Shown piece after piece: positions 88-31,684 of a stretch of 38,027 bases of DNA. Where the stretch lies: NCBI GenBank assembly GCA_030427935.1, contig JAUICI010000014.1, forward strand, positions 1-38,027, given 5' to 3'. The DNA is from Bacteroidia bacterium. GTDB taxonomy: Bacteria > Bacteroidota > Bacteroidia > Flavobacteriales_D > Crocinitomicaceae. The translations under genes were made by a program, and so were the position numbers. The notes below the pieces were generated by a model. That model was not told the DNA's origin, did not search any database, and saw nothing but the letters and a program-made list of their open reading frames with translations. The first letter of the stretch is position 1, and every line of letters begins with the position of its first letter.

Positions 88-3000
88 TTACCAAACCCTA
101 AAATCTACCGTCTGATTCTCAATTCTGGAAGTTGGTTTTTGCTGACCTTTGGAGAGCTCGAATACTTTTTGTTGGATGTATTGTTGTAGTTCCGAAAGCC
201 AGATCTCTTTGTCTTGGTTTAAGTCGGCTTCTTTGCTTCGGATTCCGTTGAGCAAGCAATAAGTGAACAGTCCATTGTTCCAGTCTGCACCCTCCATGGC
301 AAATTCCATTCCACCTGCACTAGAAATCACTGTAGCTCCGGTTCCTTTTCTTAAATCCGTAAACAAGGATTTTGATAATTCACTTGTACTTTGCATGCCT
401 AGTTTTGGTGCAGCTGCTTTTCCTACGGCTCTAAACTGAATGTCGCCTTCTTGTTTGGTGGTGTTGGCAATGAGTTCCACTTCCTCTTTATCTATTTCTC
501 CTGAATGACAAGCATCAATCAATAAAGTCTTTTTTAGTGGTTTGATTCCATCCAGCAAAGCTTCCAAGTCTGAGTAGGCAATCCCTTTTTCTGCTGGTTT
601 TTGAAAATCCATGTCATAAGAAGCAAAATAATAATCCAACTCCTCATCCAAAACCCCATGACCTGCTATGAAAATCATCACTTCATCGTTGATTTCTGCC
701 GATTTTAGAAAAGTTTTGAGTCCTTGAATGTTTTCTTTGGTTACTTGTTGGTTCGTTAAGACTTTACTGTGCACCTGTTCGAAGACTTTATTCTTTTCAA
801 AAAGCTGGGCAATATCTTGAGCGTCTTTTCCTGCATAAGTGAGGTTATAGTCTTTTTGCTGAAACTCACTAACGCCAATTGTAATCAAATATAGATCCGG
901 TTTTGCTTTTCCTTTGGTGCATTCAATTTCCATGGTTTCCTTATAGCTTTCCGCACCTGCTTGGTTCAAAACTGACACTTGAATCTTGTTATTACCTTTG
1001 GCTAGACCCAATTTTATTTTTTGAGCATATTCTTTTACGTTCTTGTTTCGAAGCGAGATTCCATTGCTACCATAAACTGCTACATCATTGATCCAGATAT
1101 TGATGCGATCCAACTTGTACAAATCGTCTTTCATTTTCAGATTCAATTCGATCTGGTTTTCTCCAGTGATTGTTGGCATTTCTTCGAAGTTTTCAATCTT
1201 AATCTCCGGGATATGAAAGTCATCCTTTAACATTTCTTCGGTAAAGCCCATTTTTTTCAATCTTTTCTGATAGGCGCGGTGATAAGCCTGAACCAAGGAA
1301 GAATCCGCATAACCTAATCGATCTAAAATGATGTCGGGGCGGTTGTATTTTAAGTCGAATTGTTCGAAATCATAATACTTCTCTCCCTGTTTAAAAAAGA
1401 CTAAATCCTTAAGATTTTTGGAACCCATATAGTAGTTGTCAAAAGAATAAAAAATGTACTCCCCATCCTCGTTAACCTCAAGCTTAACAAAGCTCTCCAA
1501 AAGTTTGTCTTTCAATTGATTTTGAAAGGACAAACGACCTATTCCGTAGTTGTAATATAATTCGATTGTCCTACCAAAGGGTGTGTTTTTTACCTCTACT
1601 ACTTCATAATTTTCACTTCCTGTATAGGTTATTACATTTCCATTTTCAGGAAGATAATTAACATAGTAGTTTATTTGATTTTCATATGCCCTCTCAATAA
1701 TTGTGTCTAAATCAATACGGTCAATTTCTTTATCCCTCAGATGAAACCCTCCTGTACTTAGATCGAAAAAATAAACTTGACCACTATCTGAAGAAATCAT
1801 CAGTTTGCTATCGTTAAATTGTACTTTTCTGATGTCTAGTTTTCGCTTCATATTAAAACGAGATTTAGATGAATAAATCCTTTCGTTTTCAGCACTATTG
1901 TAGTTATCAGGGCAAGGGATTATTTCCTCTCTATCGAAATCATAACAATCTGGAACATCTCCGTCAAAAGAGCCACCGACCAATCGATTTTTCCCAACAA
2001 AACCATGATTCGTATAGGGAATATGTAATGGGACATTAAATGGTGGCTTTAGCTGTTTGTTTCTTTCCAAATCCCACAATTCGAAAATTGGTGGGTCATA
2101 TTGTAAGTCATAGAGTATTGCTCGATTATACTTTTCAGAATAGAACCCTTTTATACTGTCTTTTCTACTCAATCTAAAGGGAAAGATCATTTCTGTATTT
2201 GGAAATATTTTATAGCGATCATCAATAGTTTTGATGCCCAATGGATTGTAATACTCCCATATGCCTACCTTCAAATCCTTTTTGAAATTCCCTTTCGCTC
2301 TCAGAGTTTTTGAAGCGTAAAAATACTTCCAGGTAGAGTCCTTATGATGATCCTGGAAATAGAAAATAGGCCGTGACACACCCAATCCTTCATAATAATC
2401 AATTGTAATTCCGCCAACATTGCCAGGCACCAACTGTCTTCCATAAGAATGAAATGAACCATCTGGATAGTAAATGGTATCACTCAAAATGGAATCTTCA
2501 ATCAATATATGTCTTCGTTTTTCTCCTTCTTGATAGAAAAAATCGAACTCAACAACCTCCTTATCATTCAAAAAGCCTTTTCCATATAAATTTCCTTCAC
2601 GATCATAAATTATTATTTTTCCATCGTAGGTTTCTTTTCTTGGTACTCTTTGTTCTTCCATCATCAATTTTCCATTCCGATGAAATCTGCGGTAAACATT
2701 TCCTTCAGTGTAACGATCCACTGTGTTTTTCCCCTGATACGAAATCTTATATATAAATGGCTGTGAATCTAATCCGTCCAAATTTCCATACCAAATTTTA
2801 CCAGTGGCCAACTTCACCCTTTTCTGGAAGTTGAATTCACCGTCTATTATCAAAGGCAAATAATTTTCAATGTCGTATTTAGGAGTTAGAATGCTGTCTT
2901 TATCTACATCAAGATAATAAAACTGACCACTGCTATCTTTAGAAGCGGCAATACCAAACGTCAGTTGATTCATTTCAGGTAGCCAAATACCAGAATTCAA

Positions 3001-20343: not shown

Positions 20344-21264
20344 TTATACTAAAGTTGGTTTGTATTCTGGTATAACTGGTCTTGATTTCATACCGGCTTC
20401 AATAATCTCCAACACTTGTTTTCTCTCTTCACCAATTAAAGGCAAACGTGGAGCTCTAACGTTCTCCGTTCCAATTCCCGTAGCTACTTCAGCCAATTTA
20501 ATATTCTGAACTAATTTAGAATTAATATCCAATTCCAACAAGGGTAAAAACCAAGCATAAATGGCTCTCGCTTCCTCAATGCGCCCTTGCTGAATCAATT
20601 CAAAAATGCAAACCGTTTCCTTTGGAAAAGCACAAACCAATCCTGCTACCCATCCATCTGCTCCCATCAACAATTCTTCCATGGCTAAAGTATCCACTCC
20701 ACAAAGCAATTTGAACCGATCTCCAAATTTATTTTTCATTCGGGTGACATTTGAAATATCTCTTGTTGATTCTTTTACTGCTTGGATATTCTCATACTGC
20801 GCTAATTCTTCAAACATTTCCAGAGTAACTTCAATTCCGTAATCTACTGGGTTATTATAAACCATTATAGGAAGATTTGTAGATTTTGCAACCTCTTCGT
20901 AATACGTTACGGTTTCACGATGATCTGCTTTATATCTCATTGGAGGCAACATCATCAATCCAGAAGCTCCATCTTCTTCAGCTTTCCTTGCTGAGTCGAT
21001 TGCCGCTTTTGTAGTTTGCTCTGCAATATTGATAATCACTGGCACTTGACCATTTACAATTCGAACAGCTTCTCGAACAAGAGTTCTTTTCTCTTCTTCT
21101 TCTAATGTGCTCGCTTCACCTAATGTTCCACCTAAAATAATTCCAGTTACCCCAGCATCTAACTGAGCCTGAATATTTGTTTCGAACATATCTAGATCCA
21201 ATTGATCATCATCTGTGAATTTTGTCGTTACAGCTGGCATTACGCCTCTCCAATTTACTGACAT
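20344..21264 (-). CDS. DHDPS-family lyase, probably 1-pyrroline-4-hydroxy-2-carboxylate deaminase
   Basis: A (beta/alpha)8 lyase of the dihydrodipicolinate synthase/N-acetylneuraminate lyase family, 306 residues. Schiff-base Lys164 sits in QAVKESTRD, Tyr136 in MVYNNP, and the substrate-carboxylate loop reads GGTLGEASTL (46-54). Position as first gene of the hydroxyproline operon indicates that it deaminates 1-pyrroline-4-hydroxy-2-carboxylate to alpha-ketoglutarate semialdehyde. True lysine-pathway DapA is unlikely because of the neighbours. A -7 box on this strand lies at 21294-21301, giving a leader of about 25 bases. Regulation is probably by the AraC protein encoded at 22093. Confidence 0.9.
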   Translation of the reverse strand: MSVNWRGVMPAVTTKFTDDDQLDLDMFETNIQAQLDAGVTGIILGGTLGEASTLEEEEKRTLVREAVRIVNGQVPVIINIAEQTTKAAIDSARKAEEDGASGLMMLPPMRYKADHRETVTYYEEVAKSTNLPIMVYNNPVDYGIEVTLEMFEELAQYENIQAVKESTRDISNVTRMKNKFGDRFKLLCGVDTLAMEELLMGADGWVAGLVCAFPKETVCIFELIQQGRIEEARAIYAWFLPLLELDINSKLVQNIKLAEVATGIGTENVRAPRLPLIGEERKQVLEIIEAGMKSRPVIPEYKPTLV

Positions 21265-21293: not shown

Positions 21294-21360
21294 CAAAAGT
21301 AAGGAAGTAAAGTCACGGTTTTTGAACAGAATACTATCGGGGAATGATACTATTTTATCT
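21294..21360 (-). promoter_or_regulatory. Promoter and candidate operator of the hydroxyproline operon
   Basis: On the minus strand TACTTTTG (21294-21301) matches the -7 consensus. Upstream of it are two ATACTAT half-sites on the plus strand, at 21331-21337 and 21347-21353, 16 bases apart start to start, the second extending to ATACTATTTTATC. Tandem half-sites about 1.5 helical turns apart are compatible with AraC-type binding. A near-identical site lies at 22028-22040. Confidence 0.45.
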
Positions 21361-21380: not shown

Positions 21381-21420
21381 GGTAGAGGGGTAGAATGGTG
21401 GAGAGGTGGAGGAGATGTAG
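21381..21420 (-). repeat. Family B repeat, inverted copy (B1)
   Basis: The reverse complement of this segment aligns with the right part of the copy at 21965-22020, 29 of 32 bases by my count, ending in ACCCCTCTACC in both. Confidence 0.6.
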
Positions 21421-21421
21421 T

Positions 21422-21445
21422 AGGGGCCGAACGGCCCCTTTGTTT
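21422..21445 (+). terminator. GC-rich hairpin, terminator-like
   Basis: AGGGGCCGAACGGCCCCT is a perfect palindrome followed by TTGTTT on the plus strand; on the minus strand it is preceded by an A-rich stretch just after the stop of the four-helix-bundle gene but has no T-run after it. It may stop transcription in either direction, more convincingly on plus. Confidence 0.5.
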
Positions 21446-21448
21446 ACA

Positions 21449-21793
21449 CTATAATGACCTTATTAGGCCGTAGATACAGCCTGAAACACGATTACATTGC
21501 GACAATAACTGATCTCTTTGTTCAAGGTTAAGATATCCTAATCGATTACCTAAATACGCCATGGACTTGACTTCTCCACAGGAACCTTTCCCTATATAAA
21601 GAAACCTCTGAAATTCTTTTTGATAATTTCGATCAAATCCTTCTGCAACATTATTTGAAATGGATACGGATGCTCTTTGAATTTGGTCTTTAAATCCATA
21701 ATCTTTCACATGATCATGGAATTGATAAACTTGAACAGCAAGGTCTTGACTCAACTTCCATGCGTCAAGATCCTCGAATCTTTTAATTCTCAT
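21449..21793 (-). CDS. Four-helix-bundle protein (S23, rRNA intervening-sequence family)
   Basis: A 114-residue protein of the family first found as ORFs inside 23S rRNA intervening sequences. Family signatures are all visible: the N-terminal FEDLDAWKLSQDLAVQVYQF, QIQRASVSISNNVAEGF, FLYIGKGSCGEVKSMAYLG and a last helix that begins near LEQRDQL. The known structure is a four-helix bundle that forms a pentamer; the cellular role is not established. The gene is not in an rRNA here but in the space between the hydroxyproline operon and the AraC regulator, enclosed by inverted family B repeats. It is not likely to belong to the pathway. ATG 21793 is the usual family start. Confidence 0.92.
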   Translation of the reverse strand: MRIKRFEDLDAWKLSQDLAVQVYQFHDHVKDYGFKDQIQRASVSISNNVAEGFDRNYQKEFQRFLYIGKGSCGEVKSMAYLGNRLGYLNLEQRDQLLSQCNRVSGCIYGLIRSL

Positions 21794-21874
21794 TTTTAAT
21801 GATTTAAGTGGTTAATATGCCCAAATATAGAAATAATTGTTTTGGTGAAGCGGCGTAGGAGTGAATGGTGAATC

Positions 21875-21938
21875 GTAGAGAGGTAAATGATACAAATTCG
21901 CAGCCCTCTACCTCTCCACCATTTAACCCCACTACCAT
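21875..21938 (+). repeat. Family B repeat, direct copy (B2)
   Basis: Imperfect inverted structure: GTAGAGAGGTAAATG at the left and CCACCATTTAACCCCACTACC at the right, which can fold back. The same order of elements is seen at 21965-22020. Confidence 0.6.
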
Positions 21939-21964
21939 TGAAAACACAAAAGACAAAGGTTGGT

Positions 21965-22020
21965 GAAGAGGTAAATGATAGAAATCCCCTCCACCTCCCC
22001 ACCATTTAACCCCTCTACCA
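21965..22020 (+). repeat. Family B repeat, direct copy (B3)
   Basis: Shares AGAGGTAAATGATA at its left and CCACCATTTAACCCC at its right with B2, and 29 of 32 bases with the reverse complement of B1. It ends 72 bases before the AraC start codon. Confidence 0.6.
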
Positions 22021-22027
22021 AATTCTC

Positions 22028-22040
22028 ATACTATTTTACC
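22028..22040 (+). promoter_or_regulatory. Candidate AraC operator upstream of its own gene
   Basis: ATACTATTTTACC matches 12 of 13 bases of the site at 21347-21359 before the hydroxyproline operon, in the same plus-strand orientation. A site shared by regulator gene and target operon suggests common control. Confidence 0.4.
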
Positions 22041-22092: not shown

Positions 22093-22950
22093 ATGAAAGT
22101 TTTACCATTCAAAATACCGAAGCCGGAAAATAGCGCATTGATCTACCAAGTAGATAAAGGAATTACGTTCTATGACCAGCTTCATGCACATGAGGAAATT
22201 CAGATTTCAATTGTGCTTTCAGGGTCGGGTAATTTAATAGTAGGTGACACCATCAATCGATATGAGGAAAACGATGTTTTTGTGTTTGGTCCACAGTTGC
22301 CTCATTTATTTCAAAGCGATGAATCCAATCAAGATTCTCATATGCTCACTTTATTCTTTGCAAGAGATTCATTCGGGGAAAGTTTCTTTAATCTTTCTGA
22401 GTTCGATGAGATGAAAGAATTCTTTCACAAGTCAGCAATGGGTATTCGAGTGCAATCCAATTTGAGAGACCTGAAAAAGGAGTTTTTGATGTTGGAAAGT
22501 TTGTCCAAATTGGAACGCGTATCTGCCTTCTTTAAGATTGTTAAATTAATTATTGAAGCTGATTCCAAACCCTTATCAACTTTTATTTACGAAAAGCACT
22601 TTACAGAAGAAGAAGGAAGCCGAATGAGTAAAGTCATGAGTTACGCCATGCAAAATTTCAGGAGAGAAATTACCCTAGATGAAATTGCGGACATTGCGAA
22701 TATGACTCCGAATGCTTTCTGCAGGTATTTTAAAAAGCGGACCAATAAAACTTTCTTTCAGTTCTTGATCGAAATACGCTTGGAAAATGCTTGCAAATTA
22801 CTCTCTCAAACAAGTGAACTTTCGGTTGCCGAGATTTCTGATCAATCCGGTTTCCGAAACATCGCTTTTTTCAACAGAAAATTCAAAAGCTATAAAAACA
22901 CCACTCCAACTACTTTCCGAAATGAAAATCTGGTCGTCAAATCATTATAA
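22093..22950 (+). CDS. AraC-family transcriptional regulator with cupin sensor domain
   Basis: A 285-residue regulator. The N-terminal cupin (about 20-100) contains HAHEEIQISIVLSGSGNL and EENDVFVFGPQLPHLF, a fold that commonly binds the inducer. The C-terminal AraC DNA-binding domain (about 185-280) has two helix-turn-helix units: ITLDEIADIANMTPNAFCRY and LSVAEISDQSGFRNIAFFNR, then FKSYKNTTPTTFR. It is divergent from the hydroxyproline operon with only the repeat-bounded four-helix-bundle gene between, so it is the likely activator of that operon with hydroxyproline or an intermediate as effector; this is inference from position and the shared ATACTATTTTAYC site. Confidence 0.9.
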   Translation: MKVLPFKIPKPENSALIYQVDKGITFYDQLHAHEEIQISIVLSGSGNLIVGDTINRYEENDVFVFGPQLPHLFQSDESNQDSHMLTLFFARDSFGESFFNLSEFDEMKEFFHKSAMGIRVQSNLRDLKKEFLMLESLSKLERVSAFFKIVKLIIEADSKPLSTFIYEKHFTEEEGSRMSKVMSYAMQNFRREITLDEIADIANMTPNAFCRYFKKRTNKTFFQFLIEIRLENACKLLSQTSELSVAEISDQSGFRNIAFFNRKFKSYKNTTPTTFRNENLVVKSL

Positions 22951-25778: not shown

Positions 25779-26154
25779 AAAAGGAGGCATGCCGAGCTAC
25801 AAAACGGTTGATGATTATATTGCAGTGCAATCAGAAGAAGCTCAAATAATGCTTCAAGAAATACGAAAAATTATTCATGATTCCATACCAGATGTAGTGG
25901 AATTGAAAGACAAAAAAGTACCCACTTTTGTTTTAACACCAACGGATTCAAAAGACATTCAACTGATGATGGCAGCCTACGCCAAATTCGTGAGTTTTTA
26001 CCCTTTTCCAGGAACCACGGAAGCCTTTGCAGAACAACTGAAAGAATACAAACAAGGCAAAGGATCTGTTCAGTTTCCATTTAACCAACCACTTCCAAAA
26101 GAGTTAATCGCTGAAATGGTGAAGTATAGAAGGGATGAGCTTGTGGGGTTTTAA
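25771..26154 (+). CDS. DUF1801/YdhG-like small protein
   Basis: A 127-residue cytoplasmic protein. I use ATG 25771 (MAKKGGMPSYKTVDDYIAVQ); the longer frame to 25735 would sit inside the upstream gene. Family features are the N-terminal YKTVDDYIAVQSEEAQIMLQEIRKII segment, a PTF strand, AKFVSFYPFPGTTEAF and KGSVQFPFNQPLPKELIAEMVKYR, as in the iron-chaperone-like YdhG/DUF1801 family. Function in this organism is unknown. It overlaps the membrane protein gene by eight bases, so they are probably in one transcript. Its stop codon TAA falls inside the left arm of a family A repeat, so the last residue may be set by that repeat. Confidence 0.82.
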   Translation: MAKKGGMPSYKTVDDYIAVQSEEAQIMLQEIRKIIHDSIPDVVELKDKKVPTFVLTPTDSKDIQLMMAAYAKFVSFYPFPGTTEAFAEQLKEYKQGKGSVQFPFNQPLPKELIAEMVKYRRDELVGF

Positions 26155-26239
26155 ACGCAGAGGCGCAAAGGTTTCGCAGAGAGCGCTAAAGAAATTTCCT
26201 CCCCGAACTCTGCGCATTCTCTCCGTCTCTGCGTTTAAA
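26150..26239 (+). repeat. Family A palindromic repeat, copy A1
   Basis: Ends are perfect inverted 13-mers, TTTAAACGCAGAG (26150-26162) and CTCTGCGTTTAAA (26227-26239), with inner GCAGAG/CTCTGC elements. It shares 28 consecutive bases (26153-26182 region) with the reverse complement of A4. It fills the space between two convergent genes. Confidence 0.75.
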
Positions 26240-27255: not shown

Positions 27256-27344
27256 AAACGCAGAGACGCAAAGGTTTCGCAGAGAGCGCTAAAGAAATAT
27301 ACCTCACCGAACTCTGCGTGAACTCACCGCCTCTGCGTTTAAAC
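27256..27344 (+). repeat. Family A palindromic repeat, copy A2
   Basis: Starts AAACGCAGAGACGCAAAGG and ends CTCTGCGTTTAAAC. Same orientation as A1, opposite to A3 and A4. Confidence 0.75.
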
Positions 27345-27408
27345 AAATTAAACGGATATAAGTATTTATCATAACCCGAGAATCATTGTGAATTCCCAAT
27401 TTTGGGAA

Positions 27409-27786
27409 ATGACAGAAAATGAAATTTCATCCGCGATCTTAGATAGTGCAATTACTGTACACCGTAAGCTTGGTCCAGGATTACTGGAAAAGACCTATGA
27501 AGAATGCTTGTATTACGAATTATTTCAGAAAGGATTAAAAGTTGAAAAACAAAAACCCCTTCCCTTAGTCTATAAAGAAGCAAAACTCGAAGTCGGATAT
27601 CGAATAGATCTTTTGGTTGAAAACAAAGTTATCGTTGAAATAAAAGCAGTTGAAAACATAAATGATGTACACTTGGCCCAAACCTTGACTTACCTCAGAC
27701 TCTCCGAAAGAAAGTTAGGCCTTCTCATCAATTTCAATGTTGCCTTACTGAAAAACGGATACAAACGAGTGGTCAATAACTTATAG
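27409..27786 (+). CDS. GxxxExxY-family protein, PD-(D/E)XK nuclease-like
   Basis: A 125-residue protein of the GxxxExxY family, which is classed with PD-(D/E)XK nuclease folds. I use ATG 27409 (MTENEISSAILDSAITVHRK), the usual family start, over the in-frame GTG at 27388. Visible signatures: LGPGLLEKTYEECL (Glu27, Tyr30), then the nuclease core Asp67 in GYRIDLLV, Glu77 and Lys79 in VIVEIKAV, and Gln91-x3-Tyr95 in LAQTLTYLRL, which resembles the RecB-type QxxxY motif. These fit an active metal-dependent nuclease, though no family activity is established to my knowledge. The gene is enclosed by inverted repeats A2 and A3, with four bases between its stop and A3. It has no obvious link to either neighbour. 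Confidence 0.9.
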   Translation: MTENEISSAILDSAITVHRKLGPGLLEKTYEECLYYELFQKGLKVEKQKPLPLVYKEAKLEVGYRIDLLVENKVIVEIKAVENINDVHLAQTLTYLRLSERKLGLLINFNVALLKNGYKRVVNNL

Positions 27787-27790
27787 ATTT

Positions 27791-27864
27791 GTTTAAACGC
27801 AGAGTTCGGTGAGGTATATTTCTCTTGCGCCCTCTGCGCGAACTTTGCGTCTCTGCGTTTAAAC
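27791..27864 (-). repeat. Family A palindromic repeat, copy A3
   Basis: Ends are perfect inverted 14-mers, GTTTAAACGCAGAG and CTCTGCGTTTAAAC. It is inverted relative to A2 and sits between the convergent GxxxExxY and PLP-enzyme genes, two bases from the stop of the latter. Confidence 0.75.
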
Positions 27865-27865
27865 C

Positions 27866-29692
27866 CTATAACTCATCCACAAAATCTTTAAAAACCTGCT
27901 TATGCTTCTCCAAATCCAAATCTGGAGCCAGAGCCACACGAACAATATAGTCCTTGTCCCCTTCTTTGGTAGTTCCCTGAGTGGAAGTCGCCGGGATTGT
28001 CCAGTAACAACCTTTAAGCTGACCATAACTCACACAAAACTTACTCTCATTCGGGATTTCCTCGATCATTTTATTGATGAGCTTCAAGTTTAGGGCTCTT
28101 TTGTAAGCTTCTTTTTCTTCTTCGGTATTTCCTTTTGTTGGAAGGTCTAAGGAAAAAACAGACGGAGTGAAAGTCTGACTAGCCAATTCCTCAGAAACAA
28201 AATTGATTTTCGCATCAGGCAATTGCGCTTCAATGAAGGTCACAAACTCTCTGGTGTTTTTGTACGCATCCGCAATTCTTTGAATCATGGATGGCATTTG
28301 TTCAGCCAGTAAATCCAATTGTAAAGGTGTCGCTTCATTGTCGCAAATCTTCAGGTGTTTTTCGATCTTGTCCATCAATCCACTCGCTTTTTTGTTGGCT
28401 ACCGCATAACCCGCCGTACATTTTCCACCGCTTGGGAATTTGGATCCACTCACATAAGCAATCGTTCTAACTGAAGCCAACATCTCTTCATCACCTAAAA
28501 AGTGCACATTCGGACAAAATGTTTGATCTAGTATAAAAACAGGATCTACAGAAACTCCACCATTTTTGGTTTTTCTTTCTTTTGATAAAGCTTCCTTCAG
28601 TTTAATCATGTCCGGAACCTCAACTCTCGGATTCGTTGGGATTTCCACGATAATAAAAGGAACTGCATCCATCTCAGCAATTTTATTCAGGACCGTTTCT
28701 GTGCTCTGAACCATATCATGCTCTCGATCTACCGGCAAATCCATCACTTCAACATTGTCCAGACAAGCCGCTACTCTTCTCGCTTGATCATTCGTTCCCC
28801 CGTAACAATTCGGTGGTACAATAATCTTGATGTCTTTCCCCGGATGATTTTCCAAAGCATCTTCAATCAAGCCCATCACAATTCCATACTGCATCGATAA
28901 ACCGCTTGAAGCAATCGTCACTTTCGAATTGGCAACGGTAATGTCTTTGACTATTTGAGAAACTTTAGCTTTTGAATCATTCTTATAACTTGGATCTGAA
29001 TCAATTCCCACCAAATTTTTTAGTGCAATCAGCGTATTCGAGGGTGTCATGGCAATCGTCTCCCTTCTTCTCACATGCTGAATCTCGGAAACATAAGCTG
29101 AATCTTTGGTAATGATTATACTCCCCAATTCTGAATTTGTATTCACAAGAAAATCCGCTTTTGAACCCAATTCAAAATCACACACATTTTGCTTTTCTGA
29201 AATGAAAACAATGCTTCCATCAAAATCCATGATCTCCTCCTCCGATTCCACTTGTTGAAGATCAAATTGATAACCATAAACTTGTTTTAAAGCTTCTACA
29301 TCAAAACAATCAGGCAATTGATCCTTAAAAGCGATCAATGTGTTCTTTCCAGCCAATAAGTTTTTTCTCAAAACCGCCATGATTGGAGTCGTTTTGGAAG
29401 AAAAAGAAATGACTTGATCCGCCTTTAAATCATGCATATTTGCTATCGTCCATTCCAATACACAGGACAATGGGTGACCTAAACGGATATAATCAAAAGC
29501 TGTTGGTAGCTCTTTCAATGCAGTGGCATCGACATTATTTAAAGTAAAAAGCGTTTCGAACTTCTCTAAAAACTGTGTTTTTGCCTGACTCTCGTCATAA
29601 ATATCCAATCGATGTGTGGTTAAATTCACCCAATCTTGAGGAATATTTTCTACCATGTTTTTGATAAAGTCTTGAAGGCTTTTGTTTTCCAT
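27866..29692 (-). CDS. Long PLP-dependent enzyme of the Cys/Met metabolism family
   Basis: A 608-residue fold-type I PLP enzyme. The C-terminal two thirds (about 230-608) has the family landmarks of cystathionine gamma-synthase/lyase-like enzymes: ASSGLSMQYGIV (261-272), PPNCYGGTND (293-302), VEIPTNPRVEV (349-359), Asp389 in FILDQTF and the PLP lysine Lys418 in YVSGSKFPSGGK. Typical family members have about 400 residues; the extra N-terminal part (about 60-229) looks like a worn first copy of the same domain (YIRLGHPLSCVLEW, FSSKTTPIMAVLRKNLLAGK, VNTNSELGSIIITKD) without a PLP lysine. Substrate cannot be assigned; sulfur amino acid metabolism is the family default. It is convergent with the GxxxExxY gene. 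Confidence 0.82.
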   Translation of the reverse strand: MENKSLQDFIKNMVENIPQDWVNLTTHRLDIYDESQAKTQFLEKFETLFTLNNVDATALKELPTAFDYIRLGHPLSCVLEWTIANMHDLKADQVISFSSKTTPIMAVLRKNLLAGKNTLIAFKDQLPDCFDVEALKQVYGYQFDLQQVESEEEIMDFDGSIVFISEKQNVCDFELGSKADFLVNTNSELGSIIITKDSAYVSEIQHVRRRETIAMTPSNTLIALKNLVGIDSDPSYKNDSKAKVSQIVKDITVANSKVTIASSGLSMQYGIVMGLIEDALENHPGKDIKIIVPPNCYGGTNDQARRVAACLDNVEVMDLPVDREHDMVQSTETVLNKIAEMDAVPFIIVEIPTNPRVEVPDMIKLKEALSKERKTKNGGVSVDPVFILDQTFCPNVHFLGDEEMLASVRTIAYVSGSKFPSGGKCTAGYAVANKKASGLMDKIEKHLKICDNEATPLQLDLLAEQMPSMIQRIADAYKNTREFVTFIEAQLPDAKINFVSEELASQTFTPSVFSLDLPTKGNTEEEKEAYKRALNLKLINKMIEEIPNESKFCVSYGQLKGCYWTIPATSTQGTTKEGDKDYIVRVALAPDLDLEKHKQVFKDFVDEL

Positions 29693-31546: not shown

Positions 31547-31638
31547 AAACGCAGAGACGGAGAGTTTTCACAGAGTTCGGGGAGGAGTTCTGAATTTCTC
31601 TTGCGCCCTCTGCGAAACCTTTGCGCCTCTGCGTTAAA
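31547..31638 (-). repeat. Family A palindromic repeat, copy A4
   Basis: Left end AAACGCAGAGACGG, right end GCGCCTCTGCGTTAAAA. Its reverse complement matches A1 closely, including CTCCCCGAACTCTG. Same orientation as A3. Confidence 0.72.
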
Positions 31639-31684
31639 ATAAAAATCTGTTTACCATCAAAATCCCTCTCTTTAGCACACCCAC

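Follow-up and report, generated by a model that had tools for sequence, protein, structure and literature searches.

Why does a gene for a small four-helix-bundle protein of the S23 family lie between inverted copies of a short repeat, in the space between an AraC-family regulator and a hydroxyproline operon? S23 proteins were previously known mainly from inserts in ribosomal RNA genes. The locus was found in a stretch of 38,027 nucleotides from a Crocinitomicaceae bacterium (the window). The initial annotation had placed the gene between one inverted and two direct copies of a repeat termed family B, with AraC and the hydroxyproline operon as neighbours, and both statements held. In an unprompted repeat search, 21381-21412 paired with 21905-21936 in inverted orientation (88% complementary), and 21904-21937 and 21987-22020 came out as direct copies (91% identical). 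The parts of the locus are as follows.

20344-21264, minus strand: dihydrodipicolinate-synthase-family (DHDPS) gene of the hydroxyproline operon, left neighbour
21347-21357, no strand: ATACTATTTTA, DHDPS-side copy of the AraC/DHDPS intergenic motif; candidate target-site duplication
21381-21412, plus strand: outer arm downstream of S23, degenerate 7-9 bp repeats of GGTRGAG type
21423-21438, no strand: GGGGCCGAACGGCCCC hairpin seen in the sequence, terminator-like, between the S23 stop and the outer arm
21449-21793, minus strand: S23 (four-helix-bundle, 23S rRNA IVP) gene, 114 aa; PF05635 (E 5e-31), TIGR02436
21841-22021, no strand: two successive palindromic modules, seen in the sequence, that hold the upstream arms
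21905-21936, minus strand: inner upstream arm, inverted copy of 21381-21412
21988-22019, minus strand: outer upstream arm, inverted copy of 21381-21412; local score 26/32 against the left arm
22028-22038, no strand: ATACTATTTTA, AraC-side copy in the same orientation; candidate target-site duplication
22093-22950, plus strand: AraC-family regulator, right neighbour, which lies beside DHDPS in 11 genomes
27256-27866, plus strand: GxxExxY (PDDEXK_3) unit with its own inverted arms, a second example of the plan

From outer arm to outer arm the unit measures 639 bp, and each right-hand arm copy belongs to a small palindrome (about 21841-21938 and 21961-22021). S23 is its sole gene; no transposase could be recognised, a criterion for insertion sequences that the unit fails. 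It also fails the location criterion for a 23S rRNA intervening sequence (IVS), as it lies between araC and DHDPS and outside any 23S rRNA gene, but it meets another IVS criterion, a terminal inverted repeat that could pair as a stem round the S23 reading frame. The arm itself is a degenerate 7-9 bp array and was scored as meeting the criterion of tandem 7-bp (STRR-type) repeats. Our reading is that this feature is likely to be a mobile-type DNA element of 0.5-0.75 kb, here called the S23 unit, which carries one gene and private inverted arrays of degenerate 7-8 bp repeats. As parts of this reading, the unit probably entered the space between araC and the hydroxyproline operon within the lineage that led to this bacterium, and it is likely to be the intergenic counterpart of the S23-encoding 23S rRNA intervening sequences.

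The arrangement was scored by local alignment of the 300 bp upstream of a gene with the reverse complement of the 300 bp downstream, a score of at least 16 counting as a match. Controls were 648 other genes of the same genomes, cleared of S23 genes, and mismatched flank pairs from the same loci. The window S23 gene scores 29, a region of the distribution that control genes rarely enter: 25/648 (3.9%) reach 16, and only 5/648 (0.8%) reach 20. In the genome of the window there are nine S23 genes, eight of which could be evaluated, the ninth (L005) being truncated by a contig end; seven of the eight score 21-36 and one scores 15. Across the Bacteroidota, 81 of 116 non-redundant S23 loci (70%) reach 16, with a median of 19, against 3.3% of mismatched pairs from these loci (Fisher p 6e-41 relative to small control genes), and no arms were detectable at about 30% of them. 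Cyanobacteria together with some Beggiatoaceae gave 28/32 passing loci (mismatched pairs 17%), and the remaining non-Bacteroidota (Verrucomicrobiota, Planctomycetota, Victivallaceae, Parabeggiatoa and others) gave 15/25 (mismatched 4%).

The repeats themselves differ from unit to unit. At every S23 gene of the window's genome with both sides readable, a different short repeat stands upstream and its reverse complement downstream, the units including TTTAGAC, AGTTCTA, GGGACTTG, TAGGTAA, ATTAAGG/ATGAAGG and AAGTAAAAGG. Seven is the commonest repeat period in the flanks of the 116 Bacteroidota loci and eight the next, and the cyanobacterial arms are heptamers of STRR type, such as TCAGTTA, AGTCATT, CAGGGAA and GGGAATA. 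In 61/65 and 22/28 units the S23 strand is the G-rich one in the upstream arm, a fixed polarity relative to the gene. What recurs is the architecture and not the arm sequence: the arms are private to each unit and match only each other. The expectation that S23 genes of this genome and its relatives would carry such arms was met for the architecture, but the sharing of family B failed. The window arm has no second match in 439 kb sampled (about 11% of the genome), where shuffled arms also gave zero matches, and family B was rejected as a dispersed repeat family on this sample.

Arrays alone do not mark S23 genes. In 442 kb of the window's genome, 37 arrays of 6-9 bp units were called (one of them a run of N) where about one was expected, and only six of the 37 are associated with S23. 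None of 26 solo arrays in this genome has an inverted partner within 700 bp, which led us to reject the idea that they are REPIN-like palindromes. Similarly, TAACTGA arrays form 102 clusters at 80 loci in many bacteria, of which only five make a close inverted pair; one of these five encloses the sole S23 gene present at the 80 loci. Since solo arrays and TAACTGA clusters are so rarely paired, it is the paired inversion and not the arrays themselves that marks such genes. The strongest inverted flanks in a six-frame scan of 290 genes belonged to GxxExxY, S23, one GxxExxY neighbour that shares the GxxExxY palindromes, and REP-type Y1 transposases. In the window's genome, two transposase genes of the Y1 type (RAYT/IS200-like; L081:9537-10083 and L075:9451-9855) are each bounded by hairpins whose sequence is particular to that gene.

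The parallel with the GxxExxY layout, also drawn in the initial annotation, held. The GxxExxY unit of the window has an inverted score of 52, and inverted flanks were found at 69% of 26 non-redundant GxxExxY loci. Like the S23 unit, GxxExxY (TIGR04256) combines one small gene with inverted short-repeat arms and has gene-less palindromes nearby; unlike S23, it encodes an unrelated PDDEXK protein, and a CRCARAG theme of about 10 bp is common to its arms in different genomes. The window itself contains two such palindromes without a gene, at 26150-26239 and 31547-31639, both of the CGCAGAG type found in the arms of its GxxExxY unit. Elsewhere in the window's genome a GxxExxY pseudogene (L077:5537-5914) retains matching arms (score 22). 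A GxxExxY unit at L196 (G019, 1310-2773) is present as a tandem duplicate of 765-bp segments that are 99.6% identical and 699 bp apart; this duplication is recent and may show the unit boundaries.

Genomes in which AraC and the hydroxyproline operon are directly adjacent, which the initial annotation had proposed to look for, were found. Eleven genomes of the same family have araC and DHDPS side by side in divergent orientation, with an intergenic region of 119-282 bp that holds neither S23 nor arrays, and DHDPS orthologues adjoining AraC without S23 are 69-79% identical to that of the window. Most of the 11 empty sites contain a single copy of a conserved motif of type GGTAAAATAGTATCA, which is more degenerate in the most distant genomes and doubled in one. 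In the window the motif occurs on both sides of the S23 unit in the same orientation: the order is araC-49 bp-motif-71 bp-DHDPS in G008 and araC-53 bp-motif-unit-motif-78 bp-DHDPS here. About ten species have GGTAAAATAGTATCA in the space that separates araC from the hydroxyproline operon (window 21345-21359; L093, L142-L151), and this motif is likely to be an AraC operator. An insertion that duplicated 11-13 bp would produce the doubling seen here, which remains a possibility. However, over 65 + 26 units there was no excess of target-site duplication at the outer ends, and because no general duplication is seen at other units, the motif pair of the window may instead be a doubled operator.

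Comparison of related genomes shows that gene and arms are inherited, lost and copied as one block, although no transposition has been observed. In three species of one genus, with flanks about 85-94% identical, most S23 units are shared, but others come or go as whole blocks. At one site G064 and G090 have a unit whose terminal inverted repeat is perfect over 17 bp, and G076 has none, the boundaries being the outer arm ends; the empty site in G076 carries a solo palindromic array. Another site is filled in G076 and G090 and empty in G064. Movement is slow, since these species have retained orthologous units at shared sites. At one intergenic site of sister species (L109 versus L117 and L123), different S23 genes with different arms are found, and gene and arms have been replaced together.

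Copying is visible in a member of the Nostocaceae (G511), which has three S23 units that are 84-95% identical, have the same GGTAATT arms and lie at unrelated sites. The same genome contains at least eight derivatives with an internal deletion, each about 410 bp long, which are dispersed and have constant ends and unrelated flanks. Their fixed ends, TGACC...TTTGAC, are accompanied by an end hairpin. These S23-derived elements (L364-L373) read TGACCGAAGGTCTTCGACCTTC...CCCTTTGAC at their constant ends. The end hairpin and the fixed TGAC hint at site-specific insertion. This evidence, near-identical copies and deleted derivatives alike, is confined to a single genome. The broader proposal of a general class of repeat-bounded one-gene elements is supported by these data; that such an element is moved by its own protein has not been established.

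The S23 protein of the window scores 107.5 bits with PF05635 (curated cut-off 33.8) and 100 bits with TIGR02436 (curated cut-off 24). Its AlphaFold (AF2) model is a four-helix bundle with a pLDDT of 95, and the closest structures are the S23 proteins 2GSC (TM 0.91, E 2e-6) and 2RLD, followed by Avd (4DWL, TM about 0.77). Six polar residues are 94-99% conserved in 138 sequences, five of them (Q37, R40, S44, N48 and E51) lying on helix 2 and the sixth, E74, on the following helix, helix 3; no known catalytic motif was recognised. Orthologous S23 pairs have dN/dS values of about 0.00-0.14, and S23 is kept by strong purifying selection. An Avd-like protein adjoins a reverse transcriptase at L413 (G002, 1455-1854, minus strand), and this RT-adjacent relative, a single case, has none of the six near-invariant S23 residues. 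RVT_1 was not found in the window's genome or in its congener G001, which has 13 S23 genes, and Y1_Tnp was not found in G005, G019 or G030, which have 7, 6 and 5 S23 genes, respectively. The units can thus exist without a reverse transcriptase or a Y1 transposase in the genome, and both were rejected as required partners.

A mechanism can be proposed by inference only. S23, a ring-forming four-helix protein, would recognise the paired ends of its unit, either as DNA or as the hairpin that they form, and would serve the maintenance or movement of that unit; the catalyst of movement is not known. The simplest guess is that the ends would be kept matched by homogenisation during copying.

The alternative that survives best, although we consider it unlikely, is an RNA element, in which the arms are kept for pairing in the transcript and RNase III cuts the stem to free the S23 message from neighbouring transcripts. 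In its favour, the window unit is predicted to fold with a minimum free energy of -217.5 kcal/mol (z -10.3), the arms forming the outer stem; heptamers and RNase III excision are features of the S23 insert of Coxiella (PMC4990558); the G-rich upstream arm has a fixed polarity; and Avd, a relative by fold, is part of a solved DGR ribonucleoprotein (8UB7). By analogy with Coxiella, RNase III could cut the arm stem of the S23 transcript, excision here being inferred. Selection on pairing of the sense RNA should, however, leave an asymmetry of G.U wobbles between the arms, and none is seen: mismatches compatible with G.U on the S23 RNA strand number 217, against 236 of the opposite kind (p 0.40). 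The arms thus behave as DNA ends that match each other; as the former mismatches are no commoner, RNA pairing is not evidently what keeps the arms alike, and we rejected it as the driver of arm similarity. Perfect inverted repeats in DNA are moreover enough to explain the fold. The RNA-element reading may nevertheless coexist with that of a mobile unit.

Very unlikely is a passenger model, in which S23 genes, or units moved in trans by other transposases, settle in pre-existing array hot spots. Solo arrays of the same unit types are indeed common in the window's genome, one occupies the empty site in G076, and the derivatives in G511 have fixed ends and an end hairpin, features that a transposase from elsewhere might require. 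Against this, none of the 26 solo arrays is part of an inverted pair, the arms are private and are copied along with the gene, the empty araC/DHDPS sites lack an array, and Y1_Tnp is missing from several S23-rich genomes. A host gene with a cellular role (regulation, defence or a DGR-like accessory function) and arms that are its regulatory or terminator sequences would fit the strong purifying selection and the long persistence at orthologous sites, but is also very unlikely given its patchy presence, the many paralogues per genome at unrelated sites without conserved neighbours, arms that differ between paralogues and the lack of an RT partner.

The mobile S23 unit remains our preferred reading, and a bolder version can be put forward with reservation, as we consider it less likely than not to hold. 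S23 would be the dedicated maintenance or mobility factor of widespread, unnamed minimal elements with private inverted short-tandem-repeat ends; the STRR and TAACTGA arrays of cyanobacteria, Beggiatoaceae and Bacteroidota would be by-products, and 23S rRNA intervening sequences would be members that landed in rRNA genes. No function has, to our knowledge, been assigned to S23 proteins or to 23S rRNA intervening sequences in decades, nor are the heptamer arrays by which cyanobacteria are fingerprinted known to have an accepted origin. A unit with paired private repeats offers a testable origin for these arrays and a reason for the conservation of S23. It is also a compact system for asking how the two ends of an element can stay matched when it has a single gene and no recognisable transposase.

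Part of this picture is already known. The 23S rRNA insert of Coxiella contains an S23 reading frame, a terminal inverted repeat and tandem heptamers (GACAGAT) before S23; the heptamers vary between strains, and RNase III cuts the transcript (PMC4990558). This insert bears out the link to 23S rRNA intervening sequences that had been drawn for the window. Beyond it, no published connection between S23 and repeats was found in the open-access literature searched (subscription papers and preprints were outside the scope), nor were the generality of the arrangement, the private arms, the presence or absence of whole blocks or the tie to cyanobacterial heptamers. The papers on TAACTGA repeats of Beggiatoaceae, cyanobacteria and Bacteroidetes (PMC4679880) and on G-rich heptamers (PMC4692102) showed no mention of S23 or intervening-sequence genes in a word search.

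Among known systems, the intervening sequences of Coxiella and Leptospira, whose mobility was reportedly proposed long ago by others, share with S23 units the S23 reading frame, the terminal inverted repeat, heptamers beside the reading frame and a similar size; in contrast, the S23 unit is intergenic, its arms are private arrays, and its protein is under purifying selection and not decaying. An insertion sequence has terminal repeats common to all copies, whereas S23 arms are private to each unit, except in the recent copies of G511. RAYT genes with REP/REPIN sequences likewise combine one small palindrome-bounded gene with gene-less repeat relatives scattered in the genome; the S23 unit, however, has no HUH/Y1 protein, and its 7-8 bp tandem units differ from unit to unit. 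The dispersed gene-less palindromic pairs typical of RAYT/REPIN systems are not seen among the solo arrays of the window's genome (0/26). Avd of diversity-generating retroelements (DGR) has the same fold as S23 but adjoins a reverse transcriptase, whereas the window's genome is without RVT_1. In the repeats themselves there is a likeness to the heptamer arrays, namely the STRR arrays of cyanobacteria, reportedly described by Mazel et al. in 1990, the TAACTGA repeats and the G-rich heptamers. These are the same 7-bp tandem arrays, described in print as solo repeats, unlike the paired arms of S23; in cyanobacteria such arrays form the arms of S23 units, which may explain the puzzling short repeats known from these organisms since about 1990.
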